Shown here: piece by piece, positions 17,846 through 24,172 of the stretch | Position numbering within the stretch: the first letter of the stretch is position 1 | Layout: each line of letters opens with the position of its first letter | NCBI GenBank assembly: GCA_902806405.1 | Contig: CADCWL010000017.1 | Coordinates: 1-45,253, forward strand | Reading direction: 5' to 3' | Length of the DNA stretch: 45,253 nt | Source of the DNA: an uncultured Thermomicrobiales bacterium | GTDB lineage: Bacteria > Chloroflexota > Chloroflexia > Thermomicrobiales > UBA6265 | The notes under the pieces: generated by a model | Database searches by the model: none | Told to the model about the DNA's origin: nothing | Seen by the model: the letters and a program-made list of their open reading frames with translations, nothing else | Made by a program: the position numbers and the translations under genes

Positions 17846-18481
17846 CTATCCTGCGTCCGCAGCCGACGTCAGCAGCGCCCTCGCCTCGCGCAGCGCCATC
17901 GCCTCGTCCATATCGGAGAGAACGATCGAGCGGATCACGCCGTCGGCGTCGATGAAGATGTGGGTCGGGACGTTGAAGAGGGGATACGACTGCTCGGTGT
18001 CGTTTCGATCGGGATCGCTCAGAACCAGGAACGTAGCCCCGTTCTGAGCCGCGTACCGACCGGCAGCGATCGGGGATTCGTCGATGGCAACGCCGAGCAG
18101 TTGAACCCCGTCCCGCTCCAACTGACCGTAGGCGCGTTGAATGTCCGGGAACTCGGAGCGGCATGGCGGGCACCAGGAGCCCCAGAACATCAGCCAGACG
18201 GGTTTGCCGCGAAACATCGAGAGCTCGACCGGGTTACCAAAGACGTCCTCCGTCGCGAAGTTCGGTGCTACCTCCCCCACCTTCGGCAGCAACGACCGAT
18301 TGATCCCGCCGCGGCCGACCTCTTCCAGGCCGCTACGGCCGGTCACCACCCACGCTCCGATCAGGATCGCGATCGCCACGAGGAGTCCGACCGCGAGCTG
18401 CGGCGCCGGCTCCGGACGCCGACGGGGCACATGTGGCACCAGCGCGCGCTGGCTGATCGGCCGGTCGTCGGCGGTCACCAT
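17846..18481 (-). CDS. ResA/TlpA-like membrane-anchored thioredoxin
   Basis: A 211-residue protein with one N-terminal membrane anchor (about 29-47) and an extracytoplasmic thioredoxin domain with the active site Cys104-Pro-Pro-Cys107 (WGSWCPPC), followed by the cis-Pro region NVPTHIFID. Such proteins reduce apocytochrome c haem-binding cysteines. The ATG at 18481 has AAGGAG 5 bases upstream, which rules out the longer in-frame start. It is the last gene of the ccdA-resB-ccsB-resA set, 28 bases after ccsB, which supports the cytochrome c maturation role. Confidence 0.93.
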   Translation of the reverse strand: MVTADDRPISQRALVPHVPRRRPEPAPQLAVGLLVAIAILIGAWVVTGRSGLEEVGRGGINRSLLPKVGEVAPNFATEDVFGNPVELSMFRGKPVWLMFWGSWCPPCRSEFPDIQRAYGQLERDGVQLLGVAIDESPIAAGRYAAQNGATFLVLSDPDRNDTEQSYPLFNVPTHIFIDADGVIRSIVLSDMDEAMALREARALLTSAADAG

Positions 18482-18509
18482 GTCCACTCCTTCTCCGCCG
18501 TCGCGACGA

Positions 18510-19412
18510 TCAAACGCCGCCGTAGGCGTGGAGGCCGCCGAAGAAGTAGTTGCCGTAATAGGTGAAGATGACGGCAGCGAAGCCGACGAGGAGGACCACG
18601 GCACTCCGGTTGCCGCGCCAGCCGCGAAGCGAGCGGGTGTGGAGGTAGACGCCGTAGACGAGCCAGGTGAAGAGGGCGGCCGTCTCCTTCGGGTCCCAGT
18701 TCCAGTAGGTGCCCCAAGCCTGGTACGCCCAGACCGAGCCGAGGATCAGGACCAGCGCCATCGCCGGGAAGCCGACGGTCACCGCGCGGTAGCCGAGGTC
18801 GTCCAGCAGTTCGGGACTCGGCAGCCAGGCGACGGAGCGTCGAACAGCGACAAGATAGAGGACGGCAGCGGCGAAGGCGACAGCGAAGGCGGCGTACGCC
18901 AGGATCGCCAGGGAGACGTGGGCCGTCATTAGCGGCCGGTTCTGGAGCGCGGGGATGAGGGCGTTAACTTCCCGCAGTCCGACCGGCAGCGACCAGACGT
19001 AGACGATCATGCCGACGGTGATTGGAAGGACAACGGCCCCGAGCTGGCGGACGCCGTAGGAGCGCTCGAAGAGGAGGTAGACGAGGCCCATCAGGAAGAT
19101 GAACGAGCTCGAGAACTCGTACATGTTCGAGAGGGGCAGGTGACCGGCGGCGGCGGTCCGCAGCGCGATCGACACCCCTTGGAACACGACCCCGAACCAG
19201 GCGAGCATCGTCCCGAAGCGTCCGGCACCCGTCCATCCCGGCTCAAGCGCCGCCGACCGGGTGACGTAGGTCGTCCCCGCCGAGGTCGCCAGCGCCGTCT
19301 GCCGCAGCCGCACGCGACCCACCGCGTACGCCAGGTAGGAAACCGCCGACGCCGAAAAGGCGATCGACGCGGCCGCAAAGCAGTAGAACGACAACTTGAC
19401 CAACGCTTCCAT
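18510..19412 (-). CDS. ccsB: Cytochrome c biogenesis protein CcsB (ResC/CcsA type)
   Basis: A 300-residue polytopic protein of the haem-handling CcsA/ResC family in System II cytochrome c maturation. About eight membrane helices can be counted. The WWD haem-binding motif WGTYWNWDPKETA is at 233-245, and candidate haem-ligand histidines are His91, His165 (TAHVSLA) and His258. GAAGG lies 7 bases before the ATG. It sits between resB and the resA-like gene, forming the complete ResB/ResC haem lyase pair. Confidence 0.95.
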   Translation of the reverse strand: MEALVKLSFYCFAAASIAFSASAVSYLAYAVGRVRLRQTALATSAGTTYVTRSAALEPGWTGAGRFGTMLAWFGVVFQGVSIALRTAAAGHLPLSNMYEFSSSFIFLMGLVYLLFERSYGVRQLGAVVLPITVGMIVYVWSLPVGLREVNALIPALQNRPLMTAHVSLAILAYAAFAVAFAAAVLYLVAVRRSVAWLPSPELLDDLGYRAVTVGFPAMALVLILGSVWAYQAWGTYWNWDPKETAALFTWLVYGVYLHTRSLRGWRGNRSAVVLLVGFAAVIFTYYGNYFFGGLHAYGGV

Positions 19413-19492
19413 CGATTCGCCTTCACCCCGCCACGCTAACCGACGGTCTCGTGCTGAGCCCGGAAGGGCATCGTCTATTTAGCGCGGGGCCA

Positions 19493-20971
19493 TCAGCCCC
19501 GCGACGTCGCCGACGCTGGTCCCTCGGCAGGACTCCGACGACGACTGAGGGGCAAACCGAGCCGTGCCTCGATCTCCCCGCTCAGCCGGTCGAACGCCCG
19601 CTGCGCGCTCCAGTCGCGCCGCGCCAGCGGCACGATCGTCGCCGCGCTGCCGCCCCCCGGCGCCGCGGCGACGATGCCGCGCACACGGCGATGCGGGAAG
19701 TAGAACGTAACCGCTAACCCCCCGACCAGCATCAGCGACGCGACGACAAAGATCGGGATCCCAGGGTTGCGTCCGACTTGCAACGAGGTGAAGCGGCGCT
19801 CCCGCAGAAACTCCACGTTCAGCCCCGCGACCTCGCTGACCTCTCCCACCCGACCGACGACGCCCGGCGCGTCCCCGATCGGACCGTCCGGGCCGAGCGG
19901 GCGGGGCAAAAAATACATCGTCCCGCTCGCCAACCCGAGCGGGTCCTGTTCGGGCGCGTTCCCCCGATTGCTGTCCGGGGCGATAACGTGAAGCTTGATC
20001 TTCGCCGGGGGAAGCTCGATTACCGCAGCGGGGGCGTCCGGGTTGACGCTGGAGACAAAATCGAGCGGCGCGGCGTCATCCCAGAGGACCTGCCCCCGGG
20101 CGTCCGTGATCCGGAGGACAACCGCCTGCCCGAAGCCCGATTGGTAGAAGACGGTGTCGCCGAATGTAAGGGGCCGGTTCACCGTCGCCACGCCCCGCTT
20201 GACCTCCTCCCCGTCCTCCAGGATCGTCAGGTCGCTCCGGAACCCGCGGGGTTGCCCGTTCTCCTGATAGGTGTCACTGAAGTTGTCGAGACGGACGCTG
20301 AGGCCCGTGCCGTAGCCCAGTCCCCGGACGGACCCCTCCGGGACGATGAACTCCGTCTCCCGAAAGCCCCATCGGGCGCCGACGATGCCGCCCACCAGGA
20401 TCAGGATCAGGGCGAGGTGGAACGGGAAGGTGCCGAGCTTCGCGAAGCGGAAGCGGTCCGCGTAGAGGTGGATCTCGCCGTTCCGCTCCTCCGTCAGCAC
20501 GCGATAGTGAGCAGCGCGGAGGGCGTCAGTCATCCGATCCGCCAGCACGTCCGGCGGCGCAGGGGCGGCGAGGGTCGCCGACGCCTCGGCGTTCCGGAGG
20601 AAGCCGTGCGTGGTTGCCACGGTCGGGTGGGCGATCGCCTGCCAGATGCCGGGGGCGCGGTTGATCATGCCGCCTATCGCGATCGCGACCGAGAGGAGAC
20701 CGAGCATGACCATGAACGGCAAGGAGTGGAAGACGTCCCAGGCATACCAGCGCTCGACCAGTGGCGCAAGGGCTGGAACAGCGTCGGCGACGGTCTGCGG
20801 TACCGAGCTGCCCCGCAGCGTCCCGATCAGGACGAGGAGGGCGAGGATCGCGATCTCCCAAATCGCGATCCGAACCGAGCAGAAGAACCGCCAGAGGCGG
20901 TCGACGACCAGGTCCGGCAGGGAACGCCGTGCGCGACGGGCCGGCGCGGTCGGCGTCGAGACCTGGGCCAT
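19493..20971 (-). CDS. resB: Cytochrome c biogenesis protein ResB
   Basis: A 492-residue ResB/Ccs1 protein, partner of CcsB in the System II synthetase that attaches haem to apocytochrome c. Three membrane helices near the N-terminus (about 36-56, 81-103 and 185-204) precede a large extracytoplasmic domain containing YQSGFGQAVVL, and a fourth helix (IPIFVVASLMLVGGLAVTF) near 420-440 is followed by FPHRRV, as in the family. The ATG at 20971 is preferred over a GTG two codons earlier because GGAAG is 7 bases upstream. It follows ccdA by 37 bases. Confidence 0.95.
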   Translation of the reverse strand: MAQVSTPTAPARRARRSLPDLVVDRLWRFFCSVRIAIWEIAILALLVLIGTLRGSSVPQTVADAVPALAPLVERWYAWDVFHSLPFMVMLGLLSVAIAIGGMINRAPGIWQAIAHPTVATTHGFLRNAEASATLAAPAPPDVLADRMTDALRAAHYRVLTEERNGEIHLYADRFRFAKLGTFPFHLALILILVGGIVGARWGFRETEFIVPEGSVRGLGYGTGLSVRLDNFSDTYQENGQPRGFRSDLTILEDGEEVKRGVATVNRPLTFGDTVFYQSGFGQAVVLRITDARGQVLWDDAAPLDFVSSVNPDAPAAVIELPPAKIKLHVIAPDSNRGNAPEQDPLGLASGTMYFLPRPLGPDGPIGDAPGVVGRVGEVSEVAGLNVEFLRERRFTSLQVGRNPGIPIFVVASLMLVGGLAVTFYFPHRRVRGIVAAAPGGGSAATIVPLARRDWSAQRAFDRLSGEIEARLGLPLSRRRSPAEGPASATSRG

Positions 20972-21008
20972 CGTCACGCTTCCGCCCGTTGCCGTCGGGA
21001 TGTCGGGA

Positions 21009-21752
21009 TCATAGCGTCGGCTCCCAGGGAGTCCACGGCGAGAGGGCGACGACGCGGGCGAAGAACTGCTGATAGAGACCGAGGAGCATCAGGGCGCCGA
21101 CGCCGAGCATCACGCCGCCGCTCAGACCGGAGACGAGGCCGAGCCGACCGTTGAGGCGCCGGATGACCGCTGGAGCGGTCCCGAACGTGGCGGCGAGGAG
21201 GAACGGGACGGCCAGGCCGAGGGAGTAGGCCACGAGGAGGGCGGCGGCGCGCTCGACGCTTCCCTGGCCGGCGGCCATCGTCAGGATCGCGCCCAGGATC
21301 GGGCCGACGCAGGGGGACCATCCGGCGCCGAACGTCATGCCCACGACAAACGACGAGGTAAGGTGACCCCCGGGTAAGGCCGGAACGATCCGCCGCTCGC
21401 GGTCGAGGAACGGGAGACGGACGATGCCCATCTGGTGTAGGCCGAGCAGAACGAGCAGCGCGCCGCCGACGCGGACCAGCCAGAGTTTGTTGCCGGCGAC
21501 GACGGAGGCGGAGGCGGCAAGGGTGCCCGCCGCGCCGAGGGCAACCCCGAGCGAGACGAAGACGACAGAGAAGCCGAGAACGTAGGCGACGGCGTTTGCC
21601 AAGACACGCGACCGCACGGCGCCCCCCGCCTCGTCCACCGAGACCCCGGCCAGGTGCGTCAGGTAGAGCGGCACCAGGGGGAGGACGCACGGCGATGAGA
21701 TCGAGAGGAGCCCGGCGAGGAAAGCAGCGGCGAACGACACCTCGACGGTCAT
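21009..21752 (-). CDS. ccdA: Thiol-disulfide transporter CcdA
   Basis: A 247-residue six-helix membrane protein that carries reducing equivalents from cytoplasmic thioredoxin to ResA-type proteins outside. The two redox cysteines are Cys22 in SISSPCVLPLVPLY and Cys148 in GAGWSPCVGPILGA, the pair that defines the family. The ATG at 21752 starts directly at the first helix; longer in-frame starts would add an implausible tail. It is the first gene of the four-gene cytochrome c maturation unit. Its promoter may place the transcription start at or next to the ATG. Confidence 0.95.
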   Translation of the reverse strand: MTVEVSFAAAFLAGLLSISSPCVLPLVPLYLTHLAGVSVDEAGGAVRSRVLANAVAYVLGFSVVFVSLGVALGAAGTLAASASVVAGNKLWLVRVGGALLVLLGLHQMGIVRLPFLDRERRIVPALPGGHLTSSFVVGMTFGAGWSPCVGPILGAILTMAAGQGSVERAAALLVAYSLGLAVPFLLAATFGTAPAVIRRLNGRLGLVSGLSGGVMLGVGALMLLGLYQQFFARVVALSPWTPWEPTL

Positions 21753-21759
21753 GCCCGCA

Positions 21760-21788
21760 AACCTAACATCGGCCCCCGGCAGCGTCAA
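21760..21788 (-). promoter_or_regulatory. Possible leaderless promoter for ccdA
   Basis: TTGACG (21788-21783) and TAGGTT (21765-21760) are 17 bases apart. The -10 box ends 7 bases before the ATG, so the transcript would begin at the start codon. The -10 match is weak. Confidence 0.35.
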
Positions 21789-21837
21789 AGGGCGTGGTGG
21801 CTCGCCGCCCGGCACCCCTGCCGGAGCGCCATCTCGC

Positions 21838-21846
21838 TGGTACAAT
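21838..21846 (+). promoter_or_regulatory. Extended -10 promoter for recO
   Basis: TGG directly followed by TACAAT fits an extended -10 element, about 40 bases before the GTG of recO, in an unusually AT-rich patch between the divergent genes. No good -35 box. Confidence 0.45.
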
Positions 21847-21884: not shown

Positions 21885-22721
21885 GTGCCGCGCGAGGAGG
21901 GTAGGGACGTGGCGGCGGCGCCTCCGGTTCCGCTACAGGAGCGGCTCTATCGGACCGAGGCCATCGTGCTCAGCCGAATCGATTATGGCGAAGCGGACCG
22001 GATCTTAACGGTCTTCACCCCGATGCGGGGCAAGATCCGGGTGATCGCAAAGGGGGCGCGTCGCCCCTTGAGCAAGCTGGGTCCGCACCTGGAGTACTTC
22101 AGCCGCAGCCGGCTGATGTTGGCGCGGGGCCGTGATCTCGACACGGTGACCGGGGCGGAGACGGTCGACGCCCACCTCGGCCTCCGTGCCGACCTCGACG
22201 CTTTCGGCCACGCATCGCATATGGCCGAGGTTCTGAATCGGCTAACCCAAGACCGCCAGGAGAACCAAGCCCTCTACGATCTCCTCGCCAGTTCCCTGCA
22301 CCTCCTTGCCGACGGACTGGATGCCTTCGCCGTCACCCGCCACTATGAGCTGGGATTGCTGACCCTGCTCGGCTACAAGCCGGAGCTCTACCGCTGCGTC
22401 TCGTGCCGAACCGAGCTCGCCGCCGCTCCCAACGCGTTCAGCAGCCGGCTCGGCGGTGTCCTCTGCCCACTCTGCCGCGCTGAGGACGCCGGTAGCCGCC
22501 TCCTCGCCGTCAACACCCAGAAGTTCCTGCGGACCCTTGACCGCCACGGCCTTGCCCCGGCCGCCCGGCTCCCCCTCGATCCCGGCCTCCGGGCCGAACT
22601 GGAAGGCGTCCTGGGGGACTACCTGCGCGGTCTGATCGAGCGCGATCTCTCCAGCCTCAAGGTCTGGCGCACGCTGCGGGAGGCGGAGAATGCCGGCGAC
22701 GAGCGGAACCTGCACCGATAG
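21885..22721 (+). CDS. recO: DNA repair protein RecO
   Basis: RecO works with RecR to load RecA on SSB-coated gaps. The 278-residue protein has the N-terminal OB fold (LYRTEAIVLSRIDYGEADRI near 21-40, then PMRGKIRVIAKGARR), a helical domain and a zinc finger with Cys171, Cys174, Cys194 and Cys197 (CVSC and CPLC). Two GTG starts are possible: 21885, with GGGGAGG 4 bases upstream, and 21909, with GGAGG 8 bases upstream; homology begins only after both, so I list the longer form. It is divergent from ccdA. Confidence 0.94.
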   Translation: MPREEGRDVAAAPPVPLQERLYRTEAIVLSRIDYGEADRILTVFTPMRGKIRVIAKGARRPLSKLGPHLEYFSRSRLMLARGRDLDTVTGAETVDAHLGLRADLDAFGHASHMAEVLNRLTQDRQENQALYDLLASSLHLLADGLDAFAVTRHYELGLLTLLGYKPELYRCVSCRTELAAAPNAFSSRLGGVLCPLCRAEDAGSRLLAVNTQKFLRTLDRHGLAPAARLPLDPGLRAELEGVLGDYLRGLIERDLSSLKVWRTLREAENAGDERNLHR

Positions 22722-22745: not shown

Positions 22746-22763
22746 ATCGTCCTTGGGGACGAT
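22746..22763. terminator. Small hairpin between recO and the convergent broken gene
   Basis: ATCGTCC and GGACGAT form a 7-bp stem with a TTGG loop, 25 bases after recO stops and overlapping the end of the opposing frame. No T-run follows, so this is a weak candidate. Confidence 0.3.
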
Positions 22764-23271
22764 CATCGGGAGCGGTGTGGCGCGCCGGCGCCGGCTGCCT
22801 CCGACGTCTGCGCGGATAACTGGGGTCGACCGTCCGGCGCGATCCAAAGAGCGACCAGTTCGATGAGCCGCGTCACCAGCAAGACGCCCGGGAAGCCGAG
22901 GCAGGAGAGCGCGGCGAGGGACAGCTCCGATCCCGCGACAAGCGCGGCCGCGACGACCAGTGCTACGGCCGGGAGGATCCCCCGAAGAAAGTGGCGATTG
23001 GCGGTCCGGGCGGTACGGCGGTACGGCGGTACGGCTCCGCATCGTGCGCGATGAGCGCTGCCGCGCCGCCCTTTGCTGCACCGAGGATCAATAGCCAAAC
23101 CATCATGACAGGAACGCCGAGAAGCGCCGGGTCGTCCCCCTTCTGGCCGACCGCGTAGATCCAGGGACCGGCAAAGGCGACGAGGACGGTGCATAACGTG
23201 ATAACACGGCGCCAGCGGCGGGGCCATTGCACCGCGAACGGGAAGCCCGACCAGAGCTGACGGTTGGTCAT
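22763..23271 (-). pseudogene. Four-helix membrane protein gene split by an 8-bp tandem repeat (frameshifted or phase-variable)
   Basis: The first frame starts at the ATG at 23271 and encodes two membrane helices (VITLCTVLVAFAGPWIYAVG and a second near PVMMVWLLILGAAKG), then passes through three copies of an 8-bp repeat and soon stops. A second frame, open from before the repeat to a stop at 22763, encodes two more helices (ILPAVALVVAAALVAGS and PGVLLVTRLIELVALWI). Removing one repeat unit, or adding two, joins them smoothly (HDAEPYRRTA then RTANRHFLRG) into a 166-residue four-helix protein. I do not recognise the family. The break may be a switch, a decay event or a sequencing error. Confidence 0.55.
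23011..23034. repeat. Three tandem copies of CGGTACGG
   Basis: Three perfect direct copies of an 8-bp unit, with an imperfect fourth (CGGTCCGG) just before at 23002-23009. Because 8 is not a multiple of 3, any single-unit change shifts the reading frame of the surrounding gene. Confidence 0.85.
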
Positions 23272-23407: not shown

Positions 23408-24172
23408 CTACGGTGGGAGCTGCTCGGCCCCGGACGGAGCGCTGGAACCGTCCGAGACCTCAACTGCGGCACGCCGCTCCGCTTCTGATAGTTCGGCGAA
23501 CGGCAGCAAGTCCGGCCGCCGCCGCGCCGTCCGCAGGATCGCCTGCTCGCGGCGCCAGCGGGCGATCTCCGCGTGGTGGCCGCTGAGGAGGACCGGCGGC
23601 ACATGGCGGCCGCGGAACGCGAGGGGCCGGGTGTAGTGGGGGTACTCGACCAGCCCCAGGTCGTGCGACTCCTCGACGATCGAGGCGGCGGCGATGACGC
23701 CGGGTACGAGCCGGGCGACGGCGTCGACCACGACCATCGCCGCAAGTTCGCCGCCGGTGAGGACGTAGTCGCCGATCGAGAGTTCGTCGGCGCCCAGTTC
23801 TTCCACGACCCGCTCGTCGATCCCCTCGTAGTGGCCGCAGATCAAGGCCAGCCGCTTCCGACCTACCAGGTCGCGCGCGACCTCCTGTGTGAAGCGCCGG
23901 CCGGCGGCGGAGAGGACGACGATCGGAGTCGACGCCAGCGCGTCGCCAAGGGTCGCCTCGACCGCGGCGATGATCGGCGGTGCGGCCATGACCATCCCGG
24001 CGCCGCCGCCGTAGGGGGTGTCGTCGGCGGTGCGATGGCGGTCCGTCGTCCAATCGCGAATGTTGTGGACGCCGATCTCGATCGTGCCGGCGGCTCGGGC
24101 GCGCTTGAGAATGCTGGCGTCGAAGGGACCGGCGAACATCCCGGGGAAGAGGGAGAAGACGTCGAACCGCAT
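23408..24172 (-). CDS. trmD: tRNA (guanine-N1-)-methyltransferase TrmD
   Basis: TrmD methylates G37 next to the anticodon and prevents frameshifting. The 254-residue protein has the knotted SPOUT fold motifs: YGGGAGMVM near 54-62, [15 protein letters not shown] near 111-125 and [19 protein letters not shown] near 134-152, with the catalytic Asp at about 150. GAGG lies 6 bases before the ATG. It follows the HAD gene by 18 bases and is probably co-transcribed with it. The usual rpsP-rimM-trmD-rplS context is missing. Confidence 0.96.

Follow-up and report, generated by a model that had tools for sequence, protein, structure and literature searches.

Genes that are inactivated or restored by the gain or loss of one unit from a short run of tandem repeats have been described in lacI, with its CTGG repeat, and in Salmonella mutL, with its GCTGGC repeat; the lacI site has three units. 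In both genes slippage has been measured experimentally. In P. putida, CTGG insertions and deletions make this a dominant mutation site of lacI (PMC3485313), and the GCTGGC repeat alleles of Salmonella mutL interconvert in a mutator strain, although more than ten thousand colonies of non-mutator strains yielded no conversion (PMC2955026). Much longer tracts are known from Haemophilus. The mod gene of H. influenzae contains a non-triplet AGTC repeat of more than 30 units within its frame (PMC3711429), in which a change in unit number breaks or joins the reading frame, and the octanucleotide repeats in the putative hmwA promoter vary between strains, with 12–15 copies (PMC3309571). The GeneTack study called phase variation only for clusters of at least five frameshifted genes, and under its criteria a frameshifted gene that stands alone, outside any cluster, counts as a pseudogene or an error (PMC3711429). 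In the literature searched, no description of phase variation in the Thermomicrobiales lineage was found.

The gene described here belongs to an uncultured member of that lineage and was analysed within a stretch of 45,253 nucleotides (the window), which is one contig of a 4.6 Mb genome assembled in 266 contigs and 90.9% complete. The closest RecO relatives in GTDB are metagenome-assembled genomes of Thermomicrobiales/Sphaerobacteraceae, so the source genome is probably metagenome-assembled too. The gene, on the minus strand, is flanked by trmD (minus) and recO (plus), and the region comprises the following features:

21885–22721, plus strand: recO, the convergent neighbour of the membrane gene, conserved in the family.
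22763–23010, minus strand: the gene's second half, lying downstream of the repeat in frame B, with two predicted membrane helices; the open frame ends at 22763.
22963–23271, minus strand: ORF A as now read, 102 amino acids, passing through the repeat and stopping at 22963.
23009–23035, no strand assigned: perfect period-8 tract of 3.4 units (27 bases), with three whole copies of CGGTACGG at 23011–23034.
23035–23271, minus strand: the gene's first half, lying upstream of the repeat in ORF A; it begins with the ATG at 23271 and contains two predicted membrane helices and a weakly DUF3311-like stretch.
23408–24172, minus strand: trmD, the upstream neighbour of the membrane gene, read in the same direction and separated from it by 136 bases.

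The locus resembles mod in having a non-triplet repeat within the frame, of which a change in unit number breaks or joins that frame, and differs from it in length, with about three units here. It resembles lacI and mutL in having few tandem units. Unlike the experimentally studied genes it is known from one allele, and unlike the slipped-strand phase-variable genes it has no homologues among the sequences searched; the 6-base units of mutL, moreover, keep the frame, unlike the 8-base unit here.

ORF A and ORF B overlap across the repeat; frame B is offset by −1 from frame A, and neither frame meets a stop between the beginning of ORF A and 22963. A codon-phased Markov model, whose training set comprised 265 long ORFs of the source genome (388 kb), gave coding-like scores to frame A between about 23260 and 23080 and to frame B between about 22990 and 22840, and the remaining frames on either strand came nowhere near these scores at the same stretches. 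The best single frame-switch point was 23029, with all positions between 23006 and 23036, approximately the repeat itself, lying within 3 log units of it, and single-frame models were 40–45 log units worse than the one-switch model. With held-out genes the gain from a switch was about 42 log units, compared to a maximum of 10.9 in 2000 intact gene pieces, and for simulated duplications of an 8-base unit the error in switch position ranged from −19 to +14 bases (5–95%). By the frame model alone, a one-base indel within 23006–23036 would remain compatible with the data. A single-base change at the run of five G near 22970 was also considered and set aside, as a switch there scores 6.6–7.5 log units worse.

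Both halves display coding-like codon use and zero internal stops over approximately 160 codons, with scores that are low for the source genome (0.13 for A and −0.03 for B; real 80-codon pieces have a median of 0.31). Four hydropathy peaks of 1.9–2.3 (Kyte–Doolittle means) are seen in the joined product, two per half; two peaks above 1.5 were present in only 1 of 3000 wrong-frame 80-residue pieces. Since each half has two strong helices and frame B lacks a usable start (no ATG, GTG or TTG between 23098 and 22882, and thus none ahead of its first helix), the locus is a single four-helix gene out of frame and not two genes. The initial annotation had placed three perfect copies of the repeat exactly where two frames of one membrane protein meet, and both the copies and the meeting point, with two helices on either side, were confirmed.

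The −1 offset and the long stretch over which both frames are open would also agree with two distinct genes, or with a single gene whose translation involves programmed −1 ribosomal frameshifting, and half A by itself shows a weak similarity to DUF3311 (E 0.005; 21 bits, cut-off 30). DUF3311 (PF11755) comprises small two-helix membrane proteins, and half A matches positions 2–36 of the 61-position model at 16.5–21.1 bits, below the Pfam gathering cut-off, while the second half of the gene lies outside the match. The missing start in frame B argues against two genes, whether separate or coupled, and programmed frameshifting is opposed by the lack of conservation and of an X XXY YYZ slippery site in the overlap, as judged by eye. 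Neither arrangement accounts for the switch falling on a rare repeat, and both are extremely improbable. The surroundings of the gene yielded neither a promoter nor a terminator consensus.

The tract is the sole perfect tandem of at least three copies with a period of 4–15 in the window, and a degenerate unit (CGGTCCGG plus G) directly precedes the perfect run. When 60 stretches of the source genome were counted together with the window (842,881 bases in total), two period-8 tracts of at least three copies were found, compared to 0.2 expected from an order-3 Markov model, and four perfect tracts had a period of 7 or 8 and at least three units, or about one per 210 kb. The tract is thus unusual but not unique in this genome. 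The other three are:

L090: a 7-base unit, where no large gene was called.
L071, 10074–10094: GGTCGGT in three perfect copies, a short way upstream of where a stomatin/SPFH-like gene begins.
L110: an 8-base unit near the start of a called ORF.

None of these, judged by eye, showed an obvious frame break of the same kind. The number of GGTCGGT units could affect expression of the stomatin/SPFH-like gene. A 9-base repeat, ACGTCGGGC, is present in 4.8 copies within an ORF of another stretch of the genome (L120, 1804–1846), where it encodes a three-residue repeat; variation in its length would leave the reading frame unchanged.

The offset of frame B from frame A equals the shift given by one 8-base unit. 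From the spacing of such tracts, a chance meeting of a period-7 or period-8 tract with an unrelated frame break would be expected in about 3 of 10,000 cases. An offset of the size that one added unit would give makes slippage the probable cause. Replication slippage at this short, GC-rich repeat, most simply from two to three units, would have broken the frame; the loss of two units from five would give the same result. The tract would still be prone to slippage, which would make the change reversible in principle, at a low rate. Because both halves keep coding-like codons and no extra stops have accumulated, the gene was probably broken recently or can still revert. That low-copy repeats slip elsewhere means that slippage can explain such an allele without an evolved switch. 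Taken together, a frameshift through slippage at the tract in a lineage-specific four-helix inner-membrane gene, revertible in principle and without a maintained switch, is the explanation towards which we lean, with moderate confidence.

A change in unit number does unite the frames, although in one respect differently from what had been proposed. Loss of one unit gives the 166-residue protein described by the initial annotation, but gain of two gives 174 residues and not 166, because three 8-base units add eight residues. No intact allele was seen in any genome searched, and the joined protein is therefore a reconstruction; as sequenced, the allele would yield a 102-residue, two-helix product at most.

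Tandem repeats are prone to errors made by assemblers or arising from mixed strains, and in an assembly as fragmented and incomplete as this one, probably metagenomic in origin, the three-unit tract could reflect an error of assembly or sequencing, or a variant of a minority strain that the assembler picked, the real gene being intact with two (or five) units. However, repeat collapse in assembly usually takes units away rather than adding them, the 27-base tract is shorter than an ordinary short read, and the conserved neighbours ccsB, ccdA, recO, trmD and HAD are all intact in the window, so that the contig is not visibly rich in indels. We regard such an error as quite unlikely.

A search with the fused protein, which had been put forward as a test of the switch, with an absence of homologues in relatives counting against it, returned none. 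No credible homologue was found in 60 relatives, in the family, the order and the class (158 genomes) or in 400 genomes of the phylum, a collection that included no genome of the same genus; nor was one found in GTDB contigs, IMG/VR or phages, or by DNA searches of the genome itself and of plasmids. Nothing in Pfam, NCBIfam or PHROGs exceeded the cut-off. The only matches were marginal (E of at least 2e-4 per genome, 30–48% identity); they covered short or hydrophobic stretches, in some cases interrupted by stops, and all were taken as chance. Matches in G044 and G092 disappeared on realignment, with no open frame at E 0.5.

Comparison of the locus itself, which the initial annotation had also suggested, led to the same result. 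The order ccdA–recO–trmD–HAD is kept across the family, and in most relatives whose contigs reach trmD, recO and trmD lie end to end with about 0–300 bases between them; a few have several kb of other genes in this position (about 5 kb in G017 and G018). The membrane gene was present between recO and trmD in no relative examined, and is most likely an orphan specific to its lineage. The homologue absence does not speak against the gene itself, which codon statistics and helices indicate to be real, but removes comparative support for a maintained switch. In one relative, a YchF-like GTPase gene directly follows recO (G010:C56, L052, 2323–4394), and insertions may recur at the recO–trmD junction in the family. 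On the other side of recO, the window holds a cytochrome c maturation cluster (17846–21845; thioredoxin-like, CcsB, ResB-like and CcdA/DsbD-like), whose CcdA-like gene lies beside recO in an arrangement that is kept across the family.

Fixed decay, in which the frameshift is permanent, the orphan gene is dying and the repeat is merely the site of the break, would be consistent with a gene that no relative keeps, with a recO–trmD gap that elsewhere lacks it, and with the weak codon scores. The absence of further stops or frame breaks over the approximately 160 codons points the other way, weakly, as stops are rare in GC-rich DNA. Decay of this kind is very unlikely.

A different possibility is a true phase-variable gene, in which frequent and selected changes in unit number toggle the four-helix protein on and off, or a two-helix against a four-helix form. 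The locus shares several features with such genes: a non-triplet tandem repeat lies inside the gene at the frame change (8-base unit, 23009–23035), loss of a unit unites the frames, with the switch point on the tract, and codon use is preserved on either side. The Haemophilus octanucleotide repeats offer a precedent for a variable unit of this size, but with 12–15 copies (PMC3309571), compared to the 3.4 units found here. Recurrence in related genes, by contrast, was lacking, as neither a homologue nor a conserved frame break was found in the family, the class, the 400 phylum genomes or the GTDB contigs, and the other three period-7 and period-8 tracts in 843 kb do not accompany a similar break.

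Topology also bears on this. Applying the positive-inside rule to the hydropathy peaks, both termini and the arginine-rich loop between helices 2 and 3, which the repeat encodes, are predicted to be cytoplasmic, and the loops predicted to lie outside have only about 6 and about 5 residues. With almost no exposed loop the protein would be a poor surface antigen. The proposal that slippage here switches a surface protein holds in part: the frame is broken at the tract by the shift that a change of one unit would give, but the switching of a surface protein is unsupported. That the locus turns such a protein on and off is unproven, and a surface antigen in particular is unlikely. A true phase-variable gene, taken broadly, is unlikely, and the narrower case of a reversible slippage switch between two-helix and four-helix forms of the orphan protein in this uncultured Thermomicrobiales bacterium is slightly less likely still.

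The meaning of the locus depends on whether its unit number varies in nature. If it does, this would be a phase-variable locus in the Chloroflexota, far from the host-adapted pathogens in which such genes have mostly been studied, and about three units would suffice for switching. If the number is fixed, the gene would represent a clean natural case of slippage breaking a lineage-specific gene.
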